DNA of 64,000 bases, from contig NC_019738.1 in the NCBI RefSeq assembly GCF_000317515.1, forward strand, positions 5,978,001 through 6,042,000, read 5' to 3'. The notes beneath the pieces were generated by a model, which was not told where the DNA came from, ran no database searches, and saw nothing but the letters and a program-made list of their open reading frames with translations. Both the position numbers and the translations under genes were made by a program. The stretch's first letter is position 1. Every line of letters starts with the position of its first letter. Shown here one piece after another: positions 53,406 to 61,339 of this stretch. This stretch comes from Allocoleopsis franciscana PCC 7113. Lineage in GTDB: Bacteria > Cyanobacteriota > Cyanobacteriia > Cyanobacteriales > Coleofasciculaceae.

Positions 53406-53448
53406 GCCCAAATCTGCCCTCTGCCGTCTGCCTTTTGCCTTTTCTTAC

Positions 53449-53620
53449 ATCTTGCAGCAGTTGCAATAACCCGCCAGGGAATTAATTCCCTGGCTAATAG
53501 ATCAAGTCGTCTTTATACGACTGAGTCGGAATTTCAGTCCATTTTAATGGACTTGGGCTACTCGCTGTAGAAATTAATTTCTTGGCAGGTGTGTAGACCA
53601 AATTGAGAATGGTGCAAGAT
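53449..53620. repeat. 172-bp structured repeat, copy 1
   Basis: It starts ATCTTGCA and ends TGCAAGAT, an 8-bp closing inverted repeat. Inside are a GCCAGGGAATTAATTCCCTGGC palindrome, a GTCGT..ACGAC hairpin, TCCATTTTAATGGA and GAAATTAATTTC. It matches 59383-59554 with only two mismatches and no gap. It lies between the sugar permease and O-methyltransferase genes. It looks like a mobile or folded RNA element without an ORF. Confidence 0.85.
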
Positions 53621-53690
53621 CTGCCTTTTGCCCTCTGCCTTCTGCCTTCTACCTACTCCTGCCCAGAACGCTGCGCGAACTGCCTTTTGC
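53621..53690. repeat. TGCCTTC/TGCCTTTTGCC short tandem repeats
   Basis: Directly after the 172-bp element the DNA repeats CTGCCTTTTGCCCTCTGCC-type units, as in several other intergenic places of this window. Confidence 0.65.
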
Positions 53691-53702
53691 TATAACCTAA
53701 AC

Positions 53703-54368
53703 TTACGGACGCTTGAGGGCTAGAGTGAGTCCATCGGCAATCGGAACCAGGCTCAGCGTTACCCGTTGATCTTGGTATAACTTCTGGTTAAAAGCGCGAA
53801 TTGAGTTAGTTTGATTATCTTTTACCTGGGAGTCCGCAACTCGTCCTGACCACAGAACATTATCGATCGCAATTAGACCACCAGGGCGAATTAACTCCAG
53901 CGATCGCTCATAATACTTTTCATAATTCGCCTTATCCGCATCAATAAAGGCAAAATCAAAGGTTCCTGCCTGTCCGTTGCTGAGGAGTTCATCCAAGGTT
54001 TCCAGTGCAGGTGCTAATCGTAAATCAATCTTATCGGCTACCCCAGCCGCCTCCCAGTAACGACGCGCAATCGTGGTGTATTCCTCACTCACATCACAGG
54101 CGACCATTTTCCCATCGGGGGGTAGTGCCATCGCCACACACAGGGAACTGTAACCCGTAAATACCCCAATTTCCAATGTTTTTGTCGCACCCAGCAATTG
54201 CACCAGCAGCGTCATAAATTGACCTTGTTCCGGCGAAATCTGCATCACCGCCCTCGGCAGATGGGCGGTTTCCTCCCGCAGTTGCCGGAGAATATCTGAC
54301 TCTCGCACAGAAACGGATAAAAGGTAATCGTAGAGTGGAGAATCAAGCCCAAGAGTCTTTTTTGTCAT
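53703..54368 (-). CDS. O-methyltransferase (caffeoyl-CoA OMT-like)
   Basis: The product is 221 residues from ATG 54368 ([16 protein letters not shown]); the frame is open to 54395, with nine extra non-family residues. The class I methyltransferase core shows [20 protein letters not shown], then [21 protein letters not shown], then [28 protein letters not shown] and [15 protein letters not shown] with the metal-binding Asp/Asn residues of this family. It would methylate catechol-type or other hydroxylated substrates in the cytoplasm. The 3' end faces the repeat element. Confidence 0.93.
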
Positions 54369-54420
54369 GATGGGTGAGGAAAAAAAGATAACCACTGCTT
54401 ATCCTATCGTTTGAAGTGCT

Positions 54421-54861
54421 ATGCATAGAGCCGCCAGATTAATCGTAAGCCTTGTTTTAATAGCGATTTTATGGGTTGGGCTGACTGCTTGTGGGGCAAA
54501 TACGCCCCCCCTGGGACTGGCACCGAATAAGCAATTGGTGCAAAAAGCGATCGCTCTCCAAATCAATCAAACCCAAGAACGACTCACTCAACGGTTGCAA
54601 TCTATCCCCCCCCAAATTAAAATCACTCAGGTTAAACTCAAACAATTAGAACCTTTGTTTCTGGATGATTTAGCCACTTTTCACATCTGGGGTACCTACA
54701 GCTTTAAAGTGAACTTACCTTCTCAACAGCTTCCTCAACAACAACGTCCTTTTGATGTCTACTTGCAACGGCAGCCGGAAGGTAAAACTTGGCGTCTGGT
54801 TATACCTGATCGTATGGGCAATAGTTCCCCAGTTAGTTGGCGCACTTATGTGATTCCTTAA
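54421..54861 (+). CDS. conserved lipoprotein of unknown function
   Basis: The 146-residue protein has a lipoprotein signal (RLIVSLVLIAILWVG, then lipobox LTAC, Cys24). The mature part has a helical stretch (QLVQKAIALQINQTQERLTQRL) followed by strands and ends in PDRMGNSSPVSWRTYVIP. The pattern is that of lipoproteins found across cyanobacteria, but no function is known. It is divergent from the O-methyltransferase gene by about 50 bp. Confidence 0.85.
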   Translation: MHRAARLIVSLVLIAILWVGLTACGANTPPLGLAPNKQLVQKAIALQINQTQERLTQRLQSIPPQIKITQVKLKQLEPLFLDDLATFHIWGTYSFKVNLPSQQLPQQQRPFDVYLQRQPEGKTWRLVIPDRMGNSSPVSWRTYVIP

Positions 54862-55162
54862 CCTGAAATCTTGCATCAGTTGCAACAACCGCCAGTGGTT
54901 TTAACCACTGTCTCATAGCTCGCATTCGTCTTCATACGACAGGATAATCATTTCAGTCCATTTCATCAATGGACTTGAGCTATGACGCAAGAAATTAATT
55001 TCTGGGCGGGTGTGGAGGCAAACTTGAGAATGGTGTCAAGATGTCAGTAACCCGAAACAAAGGTCATGTTCAGGCTCGGTGGTTACTTTACAAATCAATC
55101 AGTGACAATTCTGTCAATAAATTGACAAATATTGTAGTATTGCAGCCTTTGTAGAGGTTACC
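54862..55162. other. intergenic region carrying repeat copy 3
   Basis: The 300 bp before the sensor kinase consist mostly of the third copy of the structured repeat (54868-55042). The following 120 bp are AT-rich (AATTGACAAATATTGTAGTAT) and should hold the kinase promoter. Confidence 0.6.
54868..55042. repeat. 175-bp structured repeat, diverged copy 3
   Basis: It starts ATCTTGCA and ends GTCAAGAT. Relative to copies 1 and 2 the hairpin CAGGGAAT/ATTCCCTG becomes CAGTGGTT/AACCACTG, so both arms changed together. TCGT..ACGA, TCCATTT..AATGGA and GAAATTAATTTC hairpins are kept. The paired changes support a conserved fold. Confidence 0.8.
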
Positions 55163-57760
55163 ATGGCACTCAGCCGTTTGCCTGAGCCGTTTCTTGTTTG
55201 TGAGCAAATTCTTGACTGCATTGGAGCGATCGCACTTGGCATTACTCAAGCCCAATCCTTAAACACGATTCTGAACACAGCCGTTGAGGAAGTACGGAAA
55301 ATCCTTCAGACGGATCGAGTCCTGATTTATCGCTTCCAGTCTGACGGGAGTGGTGTTGTAGTGGTTGAGTCGGTTGATGTGAACTGGACATCCATACTGA
55401 ACCAAACCCTAGATGATTCTTGCTTTGCCAACCACTGGGCAGAGGCTTACAACTCCAGTCAATTCAGGGCTATTGAAGACATTTATACCTGTGAGATTCA
55501 GCCCTGTTACCTTGAATTTCTAGCTCAGTTGCAAGTCCGGGCAAACCTGATAGTTCCCATCCTGGCAAACCCTCCGATGCCACAATCTAACAGGCAAAAT
55601 CCCTTATGGGGATTGCTCATAGCTCATCATTGTTCCAGTGATCGGTCTTGGCAGCCATTAGAGGTAAAATTGCTGCAACAAGTAGCCATGCAAGTGGCGA
55701 TTGGCTTTGCCACCACCCAAAGGGCGATCGCCATTGGGCAAACTCAAGCAGTTGATTCGTGGCACACAGAAGCAATCCAACGGCAAGAGGTACAAGCTAA
55801 ACTGCAAGCCAGTCAGGAATTTTTGCACAGCATCTATGAGGGTGCAGCCAATTCAATTTTTGTGGTTGATGTACTGCCATCCGGTGAGTTCCGTTTTGCG
55901 GGATTAAATCCAGCCCATGAGCAATTAACTGGACTACGCCGCCAGGACATCGTAGGCAAATCACCGGAACAAGTCCTGCCTTCGACGGCGGCGGCGGCGG
56001 TTTCTGCCAACTATGCTCGCTGTGTTGAAGCGGGTACCACAATTTCTTACGAAGAGTGCCTGCCCTTCCAAGGCAAAGAGGCTTGGTGGCTCACTACCCT
56101 TACCCCACTAAGAGATGCACAGTCTAGGATATATCAGTTAACCGGCACCAGCATCAATATTACAGATCGTAAGCAGGCCGAAGAGAAACTCACCCGACAA
56201 AAGGAGTTTCTGCGTAATGTCATCGATACGAACCCAAACTTGATTTTTGTCAAAGATTGGGAAGGAAGGTTTACGCTGGTCAATCAAGCCCTAGCGAACA
56301 TGTATTGCACAACGGTTGAAGGCCTAACCGGAAAGACGGATACAGATTTTAATTCTAATCCCGCAGAAGTCGAGCATTATCTTCACGATGATCGGCAAGT
56401 CATGAATTCGTTGCAATCCAAGTTCATTCCTGAAGAAACCCTCACCTCTCGAACTGGAGAAGTTCATTATTTACAGACGCTCAAGAAGCCGCTGATATCA
56501 CCCGATGGTAAGGCGCGTTATGTGCTTGTCACGGCAACAGACATTACGGATCGCAAACGAGCTGAACAGGAACGCGATCGCGAAGTCGCCGCCAAGCATC
56601 GCCTGTTTGAACAAATTGAACAGCAAAACCAAACCTTGGAAGCCAAAGTGCGTGAGCGCACGGCACAACTAAGTATTGCCAATGAGCAGCTACAGCAGGA
56701 GGTAAGGGAGCGCAAGCGGATAGAAGAGGCTTTACGTGAAAGTGAACAACAGTTCCGTCAAATCTTCCAAGATGCTTCCATTGGCATGGCGCTCACCGAC
56801 TTTCACACTCATCAATTCATACAGGTGAACCCAGCCTGGTGTCGGTTACTGGGATATTCTGCATCAGAAATCGTATCTCTGACGTTTGACCAAATCACCC
56901 ATCCCGATGATTTGCCGCAAGATTTGTACTACTTAGAGCAACGTGATCAGGGTAAGCTCGACAGCTACCGCCTAGAAAAGCGCTATTTCAAGAAAAATGG
57001 TGAACTCATCTGGGCAAATCTTACGGTGACAGTTCTCAGAGAGCAAGAGGGTTTGCCCAAGTTTACCCTAGCCATGATTGAAGATATTACGGAGCGTAAG
57101 CAGGCAGAAGAGCTGATTCAAGCTTCCTTGCTCGAAAAAGAAACCCTGCTCAAAGAGATTCACCACCGCGTCAAAAATAACTTACAGATTATCTCCAGCC
57201 TACTCCGCTTGCAATCCAGGCAAATTAAAGACCAGTGGACTCTGGAATTGTTCAAAGAGAGCCAAAACCGAGTGCAGGCCATGGCGTTGATTCATGAGAA
57301 GCTTTATCAATCGTCTAACTTAGCTCAAATTGACTTTCAGGAATATATCACAACCCTCGTTGAGCATTTATGTCGTTCTTACGACATTCATCAACCCGCT
57401 ATCACGATTAAAATCAATGTGAAGCCAGTTCCACTCCCTATTGATACAGCGATACCCTGTGGTTTGATTATTAATGAACTGGTGAGTAACTCTCTCAAGT
57501 ACGCCTTTCCTGGGAATCAAGGGGGTGAAATTTGTGTTAACCTTCAGTTCAAAGCGTCGCCATTGAACGCGCCAGTACATAGAGAGCAGTTTATCCTAAC
57601 CATCAGTGATAATGGCAGGGGTTTGCCAGAAGACTTAGACTTTCGCAACACTCGCTCACTTGGGTTACAGTTGGTGTGTCGATTGGCTAAGCAGATAGGA
57701 GGTAGCCTAGAACTCAGCCGCAGCCAGGGAACTGAATTTAAGCTCATATTTGCCTTATGA
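55163..57760 (+). CDS. GAF-PAS-PAS-PAS sensor histidine kinase (HisKA_2)
   Basis: The 865-residue kinase starts with a GAF domain (about 20-180). It has the cyanobacteriochrome-like text DRVLIYRFQSDGSG, then QPCYLEFLAQLQVRANL (Cys115 followed by Tyr), then LLIAHHCSSDRSWQ. Three PAS domains follow (about 220-340, 350-470, 535-650), separated by a coiled coil (EQIEQQNQTLEAKVRERTAQL). The kinase core is HisKA_2: H668 in EIHHRVKNNLQIISSLL, then HATPase with NELVSNSLKYAFPG and DNGRGLP. Whether Cys115 binds a bilin is unknown. The REC-histidine kinase gene follows and is a likely partner. Confidence 0.93.
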   Translation: MALSRLPEPFLVCEQILDCIGAIALGITQAQSLNTILNTAVEEVRKILQTDRVLIYRFQSDGSGVVVVESVDVNWTSILNQTLDDSCFANHWAEAYNSSQFRAIEDIYTCEIQPCYLEFLAQLQVRANLIVPILANPPMPQSNRQNPLWGLLIAHHCSSDRSWQPLEVKLLQQVAMQVAIGFATTQRAIAIGQTQAVDSWHTEAIQRQEVQAKLQASQEFLHSIYEGAANSIFVVDVLPSGEFRFAGLNPAHEQLTGLRRQDIVGKSPEQVLPSTAAAAVSANYARCVEAGTTISYEECLPFQGKEAWWLTTLTPLRDAQSRIYQLTGTSINITDRKQAEEKLTRQKEFLRNVIDTNPNLIFVKDWEGRFTLVNQALANMYCTTVEGLTGKTDTDFNSNPAEVEHYLHDDRQVMNSLQSKFIPEETLTSRTGEVHYLQTLKKPLISPDGKARYVLVTATDITDRKRAEQERDREVAAKHRLFEQIEQQNQTLEAKVRERTAQLSIANEQLQQEVRERKRIEEALRESEQQFRQIFQDASIGMALTDFHTHQFIQVNPAWCRLLGYSASEIVSLTFDQITHPDDLPQDLYYLEQRDQGKLDSYRLEKRYFKKNGELIWANLTVTVLREQEGLPKFTLAMIEDITERKQAEELIQASLLEKETLLKEIHHRVKNNLQIISSLLRLQSRQIKDQWTLELFKESQNRVQAMALIHEKLYQSSNLAQIDFQEYITTLVEHLCRSYDIHQPAITIKINVKPVPLPIDTAIPCGLIINELVSNSLKYAFPGNQGGEICVNLQFKASPLNAPVHREQFILTISDNGRGLPEDLDFRNTRSLGLQLVCRLAKQIGGSLELSRSQGTEFKLIFAL

Positions 57761-58164
57761 ATGAGTTAGTAACATTCTCCCCCATGGCATAGCTTGAGAC
57801 TTTTCAGATCTGCTATCTCAGAAAAACAATATTAAGATATAATTAATGTCTTCGCCGCTTGGCTGTTTATGGCTGGGCCATCTTCCAACTCCTGCATTTA
57901 ACAATTAAGTGAAGAACAACCGTCTAACAGGAGTTTTCTAACAACTAGCTACCCAATCTCTGGCAGTAATGGGTAATTGATGAAAAGTGAGCAGGCGAGT
58001 TCGTTAATACCTTCAACATTGAGCATTCAACATTTAACGTTCAACGTTCAATGTTCAGCATTTACCTGAATAACTCCAAGCCTATGGCTAATAACTAATG
58101 ACCAATGACCAGCCAATCTTATTTGGCACACAAGAATAGAAACGGTAACTGCTTTTTATCATTT
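57761..58164. other. intergenic region with AACATT/TTCAAC repeats
   Basis: About 400 bp between two signalling genes. It contains CTTCAACATTGAGCATTCAAC-like and TTTAACGTTCAACGTTCAATG units (58010-58060) and AATGACC repeats just before the next gene (58090-58115). No ORF is supported. The next gene's frame extends to 58105, but the extra part covers repeat DNA. Confidence 0.6.
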
Positions 58165-59265
58165 ATGTCCAAAGCTAAAATCTTGGTAGTAGAAGACGAA
58201 GAAATTGTTGCCTTCGATATTGAGAGCACCCTCAAAGACTTGGATTACGAAGTTCCATCTGTGGTTGCCTCAAAAGAAGAAGCGATCACCTTCGCGGCTG
58301 CAATTCAGCCAGATTTAGTGCTGATGGATATCATGCTTCAAGGTAGTATGGATGGGATTGAAGCCGCTCAAGAAATTCGGAGCCGCTTCAATATTCCTGT
58401 GGTTTATCTGACAGCCTACGCCGATAGCCATACACTTCAACGAGCTAAGATAACCGAACCTTTTGGTTACGTACTCAAACCGTTTGAAGAAAAAGAATTA
58501 CAGACTACTATTGAAATTGCGCTGGGTCGTCATAAAGCGGAAGAAAGGATACGTCAGGCATTAGCGAAAGAACAAGAGATTAGCGAACTAAAATCCCAAT
58601 TTATCTCCATGGCTTCCCATGAATTTCGCACGCCTTTGGCAACTATCAACTCTTCAAACGACCTTTTACAGCGTTATTGTCGGGATTCGATGGATGCGAA
58701 AAAAAGCAAACATTTTTATCAAATTCAAACCTCAGTCGCTCAAATGATCCAATTACTGGATGATGTATTGCTTATTGGTAAAGCGAATGCCGGAAAACTG
58801 GAATTTAAGCCAGCTCCCCTAAATTTACTAGAGTTTTGTCGCCGATTAATTGAAGAGCTACAGCTTAATGCTGGCAGGCAGCATAAAATTTCCTTCACCA
58901 GTCATGGAGAATGTACCCATGTCTGTATGGATGAGAACCTGCTGCGGCGAATCTTAACGAATCTGATCTCGAATGCGATTAAGTACTCCCCTCAAGGAGG
59001 AAAAATTATTTTTGAACTTGCCTATAAAGATAAAATAGTGGTCTTTGATATTCACGATCAGGGTATTGGTATTCCTGTAGACAGTCAAAAAGAACTGTTT
59101 ACTCCGTTTTACCGAGCTGCCAACGCCAGTAAAATCAAAGGGACAGGGCTAGGACTCTCGATTGTCAAACGATGTGTAGACTTACATCACGGTCAGATTT
59201 GTGTAAAAAGTGAGGTAGGCTTGGGCACAACCTTTAGCGTTACGCTGCCACGAGTGAGTGGTTAG
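58165..59265 (+). CDS. response regulator fused to histidine kinase (REC-HisKA-HATPase)
   Basis: The product is 366 residues from ATG 58165 (MSKAKILVVEDEEIV). The receiver domain at 1-125 has acidic pocket EDEE, phosphoacceptor D55 in LVLMDIMLQG and Lys in YVLKPFEEKEL. A short linker is followed by HisKA with H152 (FISMASHEFRTPLATINS) and an HATPase domain (LTNLISNAIKYSP, DQGIGIP, GTGLGLSIVKRC). The order REC-HK is reverse to hybrid kinases and typical of phosphorelay receivers in cyanobacteria. The gene follows the GAF-PAS kinase and probably receives its signal. Confidence 0.94.
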   Translation: MSKAKILVVEDEEIVAFDIESTLKDLDYEVPSVVASKEEAITFAAAIQPDLVLMDIMLQGSMDGIEAAQEIRSRFNIPVVYLTAYADSHTLQRAKITEPFGYVLKPFEEKELQTTIEIALGRHKAEERIRQALAKEQEISELKSQFISMASHEFRTPLATINSSNDLLQRYCRDSMDAKKSKHFYQIQTSVAQMIQLLDDVLLIGKANAGKLEFKPAPLNLLEFCRRLIEELQLNAGRQHKISFTSHGECTHVCMDENLLRRILTNLISNAIKYSPQGGKIIFELAYKDKIVVFDIHDQGIGIPVDSQKELFTPFYRAANASKIKGTGLGLSIVKRCVDLHHGQICVKSEVGLGTTFSVTLPRVSG

Positions 59266-59318
59266 TTAGGTAATGGGTAATTGGTAATGGGTAATGGACT
59301 CATTGACCACCAGTTTTT

Positions 59319-59347
59319 GTAGGGGCACGATATGATCATGCCCTTAC
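59319..59347. repeat. GTAGGGGCA hairpin, short copy
   Basis: GTAGGGGCA and TGCCCTTAC form a 9-bp stem with one G-T pair or mismatch. It corresponds to the copy at 15414-15476. Confidence 0.6.
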
Positions 59348-59382
59348 CTGCTCTTTATCCCGCTCAAAATCCCTTTACTTAC

Positions 59383-59554
59383 ATCTTGCAGCAGTCGCAA
59401 TAACCCGCCAGGGAATTAATTCCCTGGCTAATAGATCAAGTCGTCTTCATACGACTGAGTCGGAATTTCAGTCCATTTTAATGGACTTGGGCTACTCGCT
59501 GTAGAAATTAATTTCTTGGCAGGTGTGTAGACCAAATTGAGAATGGTGCAAGAT
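59383..59554. repeat. 172-bp structured repeat, copy 2
   Basis: It is 172 bp, identical to 53449-53620 except at two positions, one of them in the loop of the GTCGT..ACGAC hairpin. It is closed by ATCTTGCA and TGCAAGAT. It sits just downstream of the SLH-protein stop. Confidence 0.85.
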
Positions 59555-59560
59555 CTGAGT

Positions 59561-60868
<1,308 letters not shown>

Positions 60869-61339
60869 CGTGTCTCTCTGTTGAAAAATCAAGATTATGC
60901 TTTTGTGTAATGGAGTAATTTCTCTGTTCAAACTATTTGATGAACCTCATCCTCAAAAGTTTCCACAGTTGCTAGATGTCATTGTTTTGATTTCTCTTTC
61001 TTAAGAACTGTTAAGGTTGAGAGATGAGTGTGAAACTTGCTATCACGATCTCCCGTCTCTGTAGCGATTAACCCTGTTGGCAGAATCAAATCGATAGTAA
61101 GAGGCAACATGGGAGCGTCGGAGTAAACATACCACATCCTGACCGTCTAACCTCCGGTCAAGCTGGGCTGTTGTTGTGACAATTTGAAAAATGTCCACTC
61201 CCCAGGGAAGGGCAAAGGTGGTTTTGGACGATATTGACCAAACTCCGGTGTGAGACTCTAACAACCAGCACAACTTGACATACTATCGCTATCACAGTTC
61301 GTCAGGATAATGCTATGTTTTCTATTGAGACTGACCCAA
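60869..61339. other. intergenic region
   Basis: About 470 bp between divergent genes. A minus-strand frame at 61043-61273 has poor composition and is rejected. TTCTTAAGAACTGTTAAGG near 61000 is a small palindromic patch. Nothing else is recognised. Confidence 0.4.

Follow-up and report, generated by a model that had tools for sequence, protein, structure and literature searches.

Palindromic repeats in Allocoleopsis franciscana form a mobile MITE family with a likely DDE transposase mobiliser

Three folded repeats lie in the window, the whole stretch of 64,000 nucleotides from Allocoleopsis franciscana PCC 7113 that was analyzed here, at positions 53449-53620, 54868-55042 and 59383-59554. One of their stems reads either CAGGGAAT/ATTCCCTG or CAGTGGTT/AACCACTG, with both arms altered together, which raises the question of whether the repeats are kept as an RNA or are mobile DNA and, if they are mobile, what moves them. 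The initial annotation had given these positions, the compensatory stem and the lack of any gene-sized ORF inside the elements, and all were confirmed. Its common closing sequence held with one amendment, an extra base in the second copy (GGTGTCAAGAT), and the elements extend approximately 5 bp further on both sides than it had drawn them.

Window copies, inverted ends and empty sites

Copy 1 (53444..53625, plus strand) is 182 bp long including the outer bases of the inverted ends (TIRs), and its 3' terminal bases are degenerate (CTGCC). It carries four hairpins: H1 (53473..53494), a 22-bp perfect palindrome, GCCAGGGAATTAATTCCCTGGC; H2 (53506..53521), GTCGT..ACGAC; H3 (53536..53553), AGTCCATTTTAATGGACT; and H4 (53564..53586), GCTGTAGAAATTAATTTCTTGGC. 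Copy 2 (54863..55047, plus strand, 185 bp) reads CTGAAATCTTGC...GATGTCAG, and copy 3 (59378..59559, plus strand, 182 bp) reads CTTACATCTTGC...GCAAGATCTGAG. Copies 1 and 3 are 99% identical and, as annotated, differ at two positions.

The window was compared with G001, a genome of the same genus whose corresponding region is colinear and about 88-95% identical. Base-exact empty sites were found there for two of the copies. At copy 2, the window reads TTCCT-TAAC-element-TAAC-CCG and the congener TTCCT-TAAC-CCG, which defines a 4-bp target duplication (TSD), TAAC, at 54859..54862 and 55048-55051. The upstream ORF (54421-54861) takes its stop codon from the TAA of this duplication, and the position of copy 2 is such that the duplicated TAA restores the stop of that preceding gene. 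Copy 3 is flanked by TTTA at 59374..59377 and 59560-59563, detected in the TSD survey as well as at the empty site, where the congener has a single TTTA. The exact empty sites of copies 2 and 3 show that window copies have been mobile. No recognizable element was present at the position of copy 1 in the region comparison with G001, but the flanks are of low complexity and the junction is inexact; the candidate 4-bp duplication at this copy, TTTT (53440..53443 and 53626-53629), is likewise low-complexity and weak. Heptamer-like runs, TGCCTTC/TGCCTTTTGCC, flank copy 1 on both sides (53415-53654) and resemble short tandem repeats common in cyanobacteria. Elsewhere in the window, at 60177-60327, a degenerate 6/12-bp repeat encodes a Gly-Ser/Thr linker in a minus-strand ORF (59561-60931).

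The search of the whole genome and its relatives that the annotation had suggested revealed a dispersed family. In the A. franciscana genome (G000, 7.97 Mb, 9 contigs), 54 BLASTN matches collapsed into 41 separate places, spread over both strands, and family matches were present in 36 of 57 genomes, a set comprising this genome and relatives from genus to order. When copies were oriented and compared with their flanks, similarity extended at both ends as far as the TIR, CTNASATCTTGCACC. The 10-bp end core, ATCTTGCACC, occurs 82 times in the A. franciscana genome compared with three times for the reversed control.

Exact duplications were surveyed in 138 TIR-bounded elements, a number that includes pairs from overlapping ends; 28 had a 4-bp and 47 a 6-bp duplication, whereas shuffling gave means of 3.3 and 1.8, respectively, and each length from 7 to 10 bp was seen once at most. 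The 6-bp target sites read TTNNAA. Among 107 TIR-bounded elements with the same ends, duplication lengths were bimodal, with 5 bp rare; 4 bp was commoner in the A. franciscana genome and 6-bp TTNNAA commoner elsewhere. In the congener, hairpin H3 of one copy has itself been invaded by a further copy, with duplication of the 6 bp TTTCAA, and the matching A. franciscana copy is empty at this point. Many elements have inserted into the middle of a different palindrome (AGTCNN-TTNNAA-NNGACT), which is often one of the hairpins of their own kind of element, to give nested palindromes (L033, L067, L141, L152, L155, L157, L165, L176, L178 and L189). In the 5' flanks of L008, L027 and L030, and beside the minus-strand elements of L081 and L100, the outer flank TTTGCTGTGAGCAACAGTTCATGGAGAGTCTTGCACC (or its variant TGAGCTAGCGCTCAC) is joined to the TIR; this repeated flank is apparently another end type. 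By size (182-185 bp, below 500 bp), lack of a transposase ORF, copy number, TIRs, and TSDs with an empty site, the repeats are MITEs.

Transposases and interiors between the ends

A scan of GTDB genomes with the longer end returned at least 117 stretches, and among the matches listed all records were cyanobacterial except for one Gracilibacteria MAG. The ORF-bearing version that the annotation had proposed to look for was found in other cyanobacteria, where the same ends bound insertion sequences of 1.2-1.6 kb encoding a DDE transposase of ~375-400 amino acids. At L194, two ends 1,388 bp apart enclose a 373-aa ORF; L134 and L225 are organized alike, with ORFs of 398 and 388 aa whose products are 50% and 48% identical to the L194 transposase. 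The L194 protein matches DDE_Tnp_1 (PF01609) with 48.9 bits (cut-off 23, E 9e-13), and D98, D179, E275, R271 and K282 are invariant across the three aligned proteins, giving a DDE triad with the R-(3)-E-(6)-K signature. All three proteins match IS701 and IS4 models of NCBIfam, the nearest being IS701_3, IS701 and IS4_1, at about 42-66 bits and below their cut-offs of 115-170; for IS701, NF033540 scored 53.6-65.7 bits against 150 and NF049999 45.8-64.2 against 170.

A profile built from the three transposases matched in 24 of the 57 genomes. At nine loci found with this protein profile, without use of the ends (L248-L254, L272 and L274), the same inverted ends flank the gene with 0-2 mismatches. 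Because the end scan and the protein profile converge, transposase and ends are linked from two directions, and the MITEs share their ends with autonomous insertion sequences in other genomes (L194, L134, L225 and L248-L254). That the element is non-autonomous and depends on an unseen protein to move it, as the annotation proposed, is upheld by the TIRs, the TSDs, the exact empty sites and these ORF-bearing versions.

The A. franciscana genome itself gave no match to the transposase profile. It contains 31 DDE_Tnp_1 matches, and no TIR pair flanks the transposase at the 30 with loci; in the congener, only a broken transposase fragment was found. This leaves the window copies as orphans, unless something unrecognized moved them. 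The IS701-like elements of the genome were rejected as mobiliser since their ends are unrelated. Seven near-identical copies of one such element (L121-L127, ends ACTGGAGATTAGACTACGA) are present, and it has apparently been active recently. In the 57 genomes, several of them drafts, at least five cores were found in about 4 of the 14 with a good transposase match (E<1e-20) compared with 21 of the 43 without. An intact transposase is missing from most genomes rich in the core, and two of the core-rich genomes, G012 and G014, have 60-74 ends each, none of which form a convergent pair at the spacing of a complete insertion sequence.

Different interiors occur between identical ends in the A. franciscana genome: C/G-rich elements of ~113 bp and, at L067, a 174-bp element with other hairpins. 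The C/G-rich elements are a second MITE type with an unrelated interior, CCCCTCCCCAGCCCT...GGGGGGTTAGGGGGGT (L063:2452-2564, L081:3981-4093, L104:2566-2679 and, on the minus strand, L100 near 2533). In G033, the hairpin core lies within other ends (GTCAACTTAAGG). Element ends are independent of the interior. The G033 cores between GTCAACTTAAGG...TTAAGTTGAC are at L047, L331, L334, L336, L342 and L343, and several of those with GTCAACTTAAGG ends lie in turn within a palindrome that begins TAGGGGCGCAA. At L096:2546-2752, the H2 loop contains an insertion of 27 bp (GTTCGCGTTAGCGTTCCCGAAGGGTA-like) that resembles the very small dispersed repeats of cyanobacteria. It is possible, although speculative, that the core of four palindromes functions as a unit in its own right, captured by unrelated ends, used as a landing site and kept palindromic by arm-to-arm correction, and that it acts either as a cruciform-forming DNA array or as a module from both strands. 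If so, the hairpin covariation would arise without any RNA.

Taking this evidence with that on the hairpins (below), we consider it probable that the repeats are MITEs moved in trans by an IS4/IS701-like DDE transposase and that their arms change together mainly through palindrome maintenance at the DNA level. The transposase, encoded elsewhere or formerly present, would recognize the inverted ends CTNASATCTTGCACC(ATTCTCAAT) and move the element in trans, generating a 4-bp or a 6-bp TTNNAA-like target duplication. The interior consists of four clustered palindromes, each perfect or nearly so, in which template switching could overwrite an arm with a copy of its partner and turn the loop around; selection for cruciform-forming or symmetric sites may contribute. 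We infer that such a transposase moved these particular window copies; counting against this reading are its absence from the A. franciscana genome, the lack of a good match to it in most core-rich genomes, the occurrence of the core within other ends in G033 and the slight excess of long-range pairing over its controls.

Covariation and strand symmetry of the hairpins

Folded as a single strand, the repeat was far more stable than its dinucleotide shuffles (z -6.05 and -3.78), but the opposite strand folded equally well (z -6.19). An alignment of 58 copies showed standard pairs in 94.3% of the cells of the four local hairpins compared with 81.9% after shuffling, with a covariation score of 0.350 against 0.122. 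The covariation that the annotation expected in a larger alignment was thus present: 22 of 35 pairs had changed on both sides, and none of 500 shuffles scored as high. Long-range helices joining the element halves, TIRs included, were only weakly above controls (0.126 compared with 0.099), and RNAalifold predicted local hairpins with no long-range helix. Linkers and loops are not conserved.

Mismatch classes do not distinguish the strands. Among distinct stem sequences from 167 copies, a count of stems rather than of evolutionary events, there were 84 G.T and 73 A.C mismatches (p 0.42); copies were oriented by their best profile match, and wrong orientation would blur an asymmetry. The acceptor arms of tRNAs from the same genome, used as a control, gave 29 G.T and 2 A.C. 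The excess of G.U over A.C that marks strand-specific structured RNA was therefore not seen in the repeats. Among the loops are reverse-complement partners (TT/AA, TC/GA and AAAGC/GCTTT), several of them on identical arms. Across 68 close copy pairs, 54 changes were paired and 154 affected one arm only, and in 12 hairpins at least two paired positions had changed; hairpin alleles may spread by recombination between copies. Template switching between the arms of inverted repeats is known to homogenize the arms and invert the spacers (PMC8604942). The strand symmetry, in G.T and A.C counts and in loop inversion, together with the local covariation, argues against a strand-specific RNA. The pattern is as expected if template switching maintains the palindromes at the DNA level, or if selection acts on both strands; a strand-specific functional RNA is not needed to account for it. 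Of the annotation's proposed selection for an RNA (or DNA) fold, the covariation stands, and the RNA fold, given strand-symmetric and local pairing, is not established.

In the main rival reading, selection acts on transcripts from either side and thereby preserves the hairpins, the MITEs serving as bidirectional mRNA-end structures or terminators at gene 3' ends. Because the orientation of the insertions relative to genes is mixed, selection for RNA on both strands would leave a symmetric pattern as well, so this model, too, predicts equal G.T and A.C counts, and it accords with the strong hairpin covariation and with the stable folding known for MITE transcripts (PMC10969869). Ten A. franciscana copies lie between convergent genes, 3 between divergent and 17 between tandem genes; the window baseline is 7 convergent and 9 divergent, and since this baseline is small the convergent bias is not significant. 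However, the perfect palindromes lack a following U-tract, the two terminator-like matches inside copies use the H2-H3 linker, and loop inversion and non-conserved linkers favor DNA processes. We regard transcript selection from both strands as unlikely.

A riboswitch- or ribozyme-like RNA acting from one strand and spread as a repeat is considerably less probable still. Its merits are the fold (z -6.05) and the covariation of the four hairpins, but the antisense strand folds equally well, wobble asymmetry is missing against a clear tRNA control, long-range covariation is slight, linkers and loops are unconserved, and no Rfam family matched.

Segmental duplication or the recombination leftovers that the annotation had set against its own reading might be suspected from the near-identity of copies 1 and 3, 6 kb apart, but is very improbable given unrelated flanks and the 41 dispersed places, and the exact empty sites with TSDs refute it for copies 2 and 3.

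HEARO/omegaRNA elements (RF02033) are structured, dispersed and occur in cyanobacteria, but the annotation's suggestion of an ORF-less member moved by IscB-type machinery shares only this general picture with the repeats and is extremely improbable: the window gave no Rfam HEARO match that reached the gathering score, and the surroundings of the first two copies gave none at E<=10, TIRs and TSDs are present on both sides, and ORF-bearing versions encode a DDE transposase rather than IscB. HEARO and the other Rfam families, none with a match, were rejected.

Relation to known elements and significance

MITEs, including cyanobacterial ones, are already known (PMC10969869 and PMC3733652). Like Correia/NEMIS, RUP, ERIC and Nezha, the present elements are 100-300 bp long and intergenic, lack an ORF, have TIRs and TSDs, fold into hairpins and are probably mobilized in trans (PMC10969869 and PMC3733652); the likeness to the cyanobacterial Nezha is drawn at the level of general description. 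They differ in their four palindromes with pervasive arm-by-arm covariation, in a core common to elements with other ends and in insertion into each other's hairpins. The mobiliser resembles IS701/IS4 (DDE_Tnp_1) in its PF01609 match, its nearest NCBIfam models and the 4-bp TSDs at several copies, but its NCBIfam scores are below cut-off and its TIR is unlike those of the IS701-like copies in the A. franciscana genome. Small dispersed repeats and REP-like palindromes of cyanobacteria, as far as PMC3733652 relays Elhai 2008, are also short and repeated across genomes; here, by contrast, the palindromes are fixed parts of a TIR-bounded unit of ~180 bp, and no RAYT-type mobility is needed. From HEARO/omegaRNA the family differs in lacking a covariance-model match and in having DDE-type ends with a TSD. 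Outside subscription journals and ISfinder, no paper on this MITE family was found; searches on the end sequence returned only unrelated, primer-type papers, and those combining HEARO and cyanobacteria nothing relevant. We therefore consider the family new within the known MITE kind, with an unusual interior.

What appeared to be an RNA element is thus a clear mobile DNA family with a likely mobiliser identified, and many such cores lie in cyanobacterial intergenic DNA. The strand-symmetry test, comparing G.U with A.C and looking for loop inversion, helps to separate RNA from palindromic DNA. Caution is warranted, as strong covariation of paired bases, which is usually taken to prove that an RNA is conserved, can also come from mobile DNA that is palindromic.
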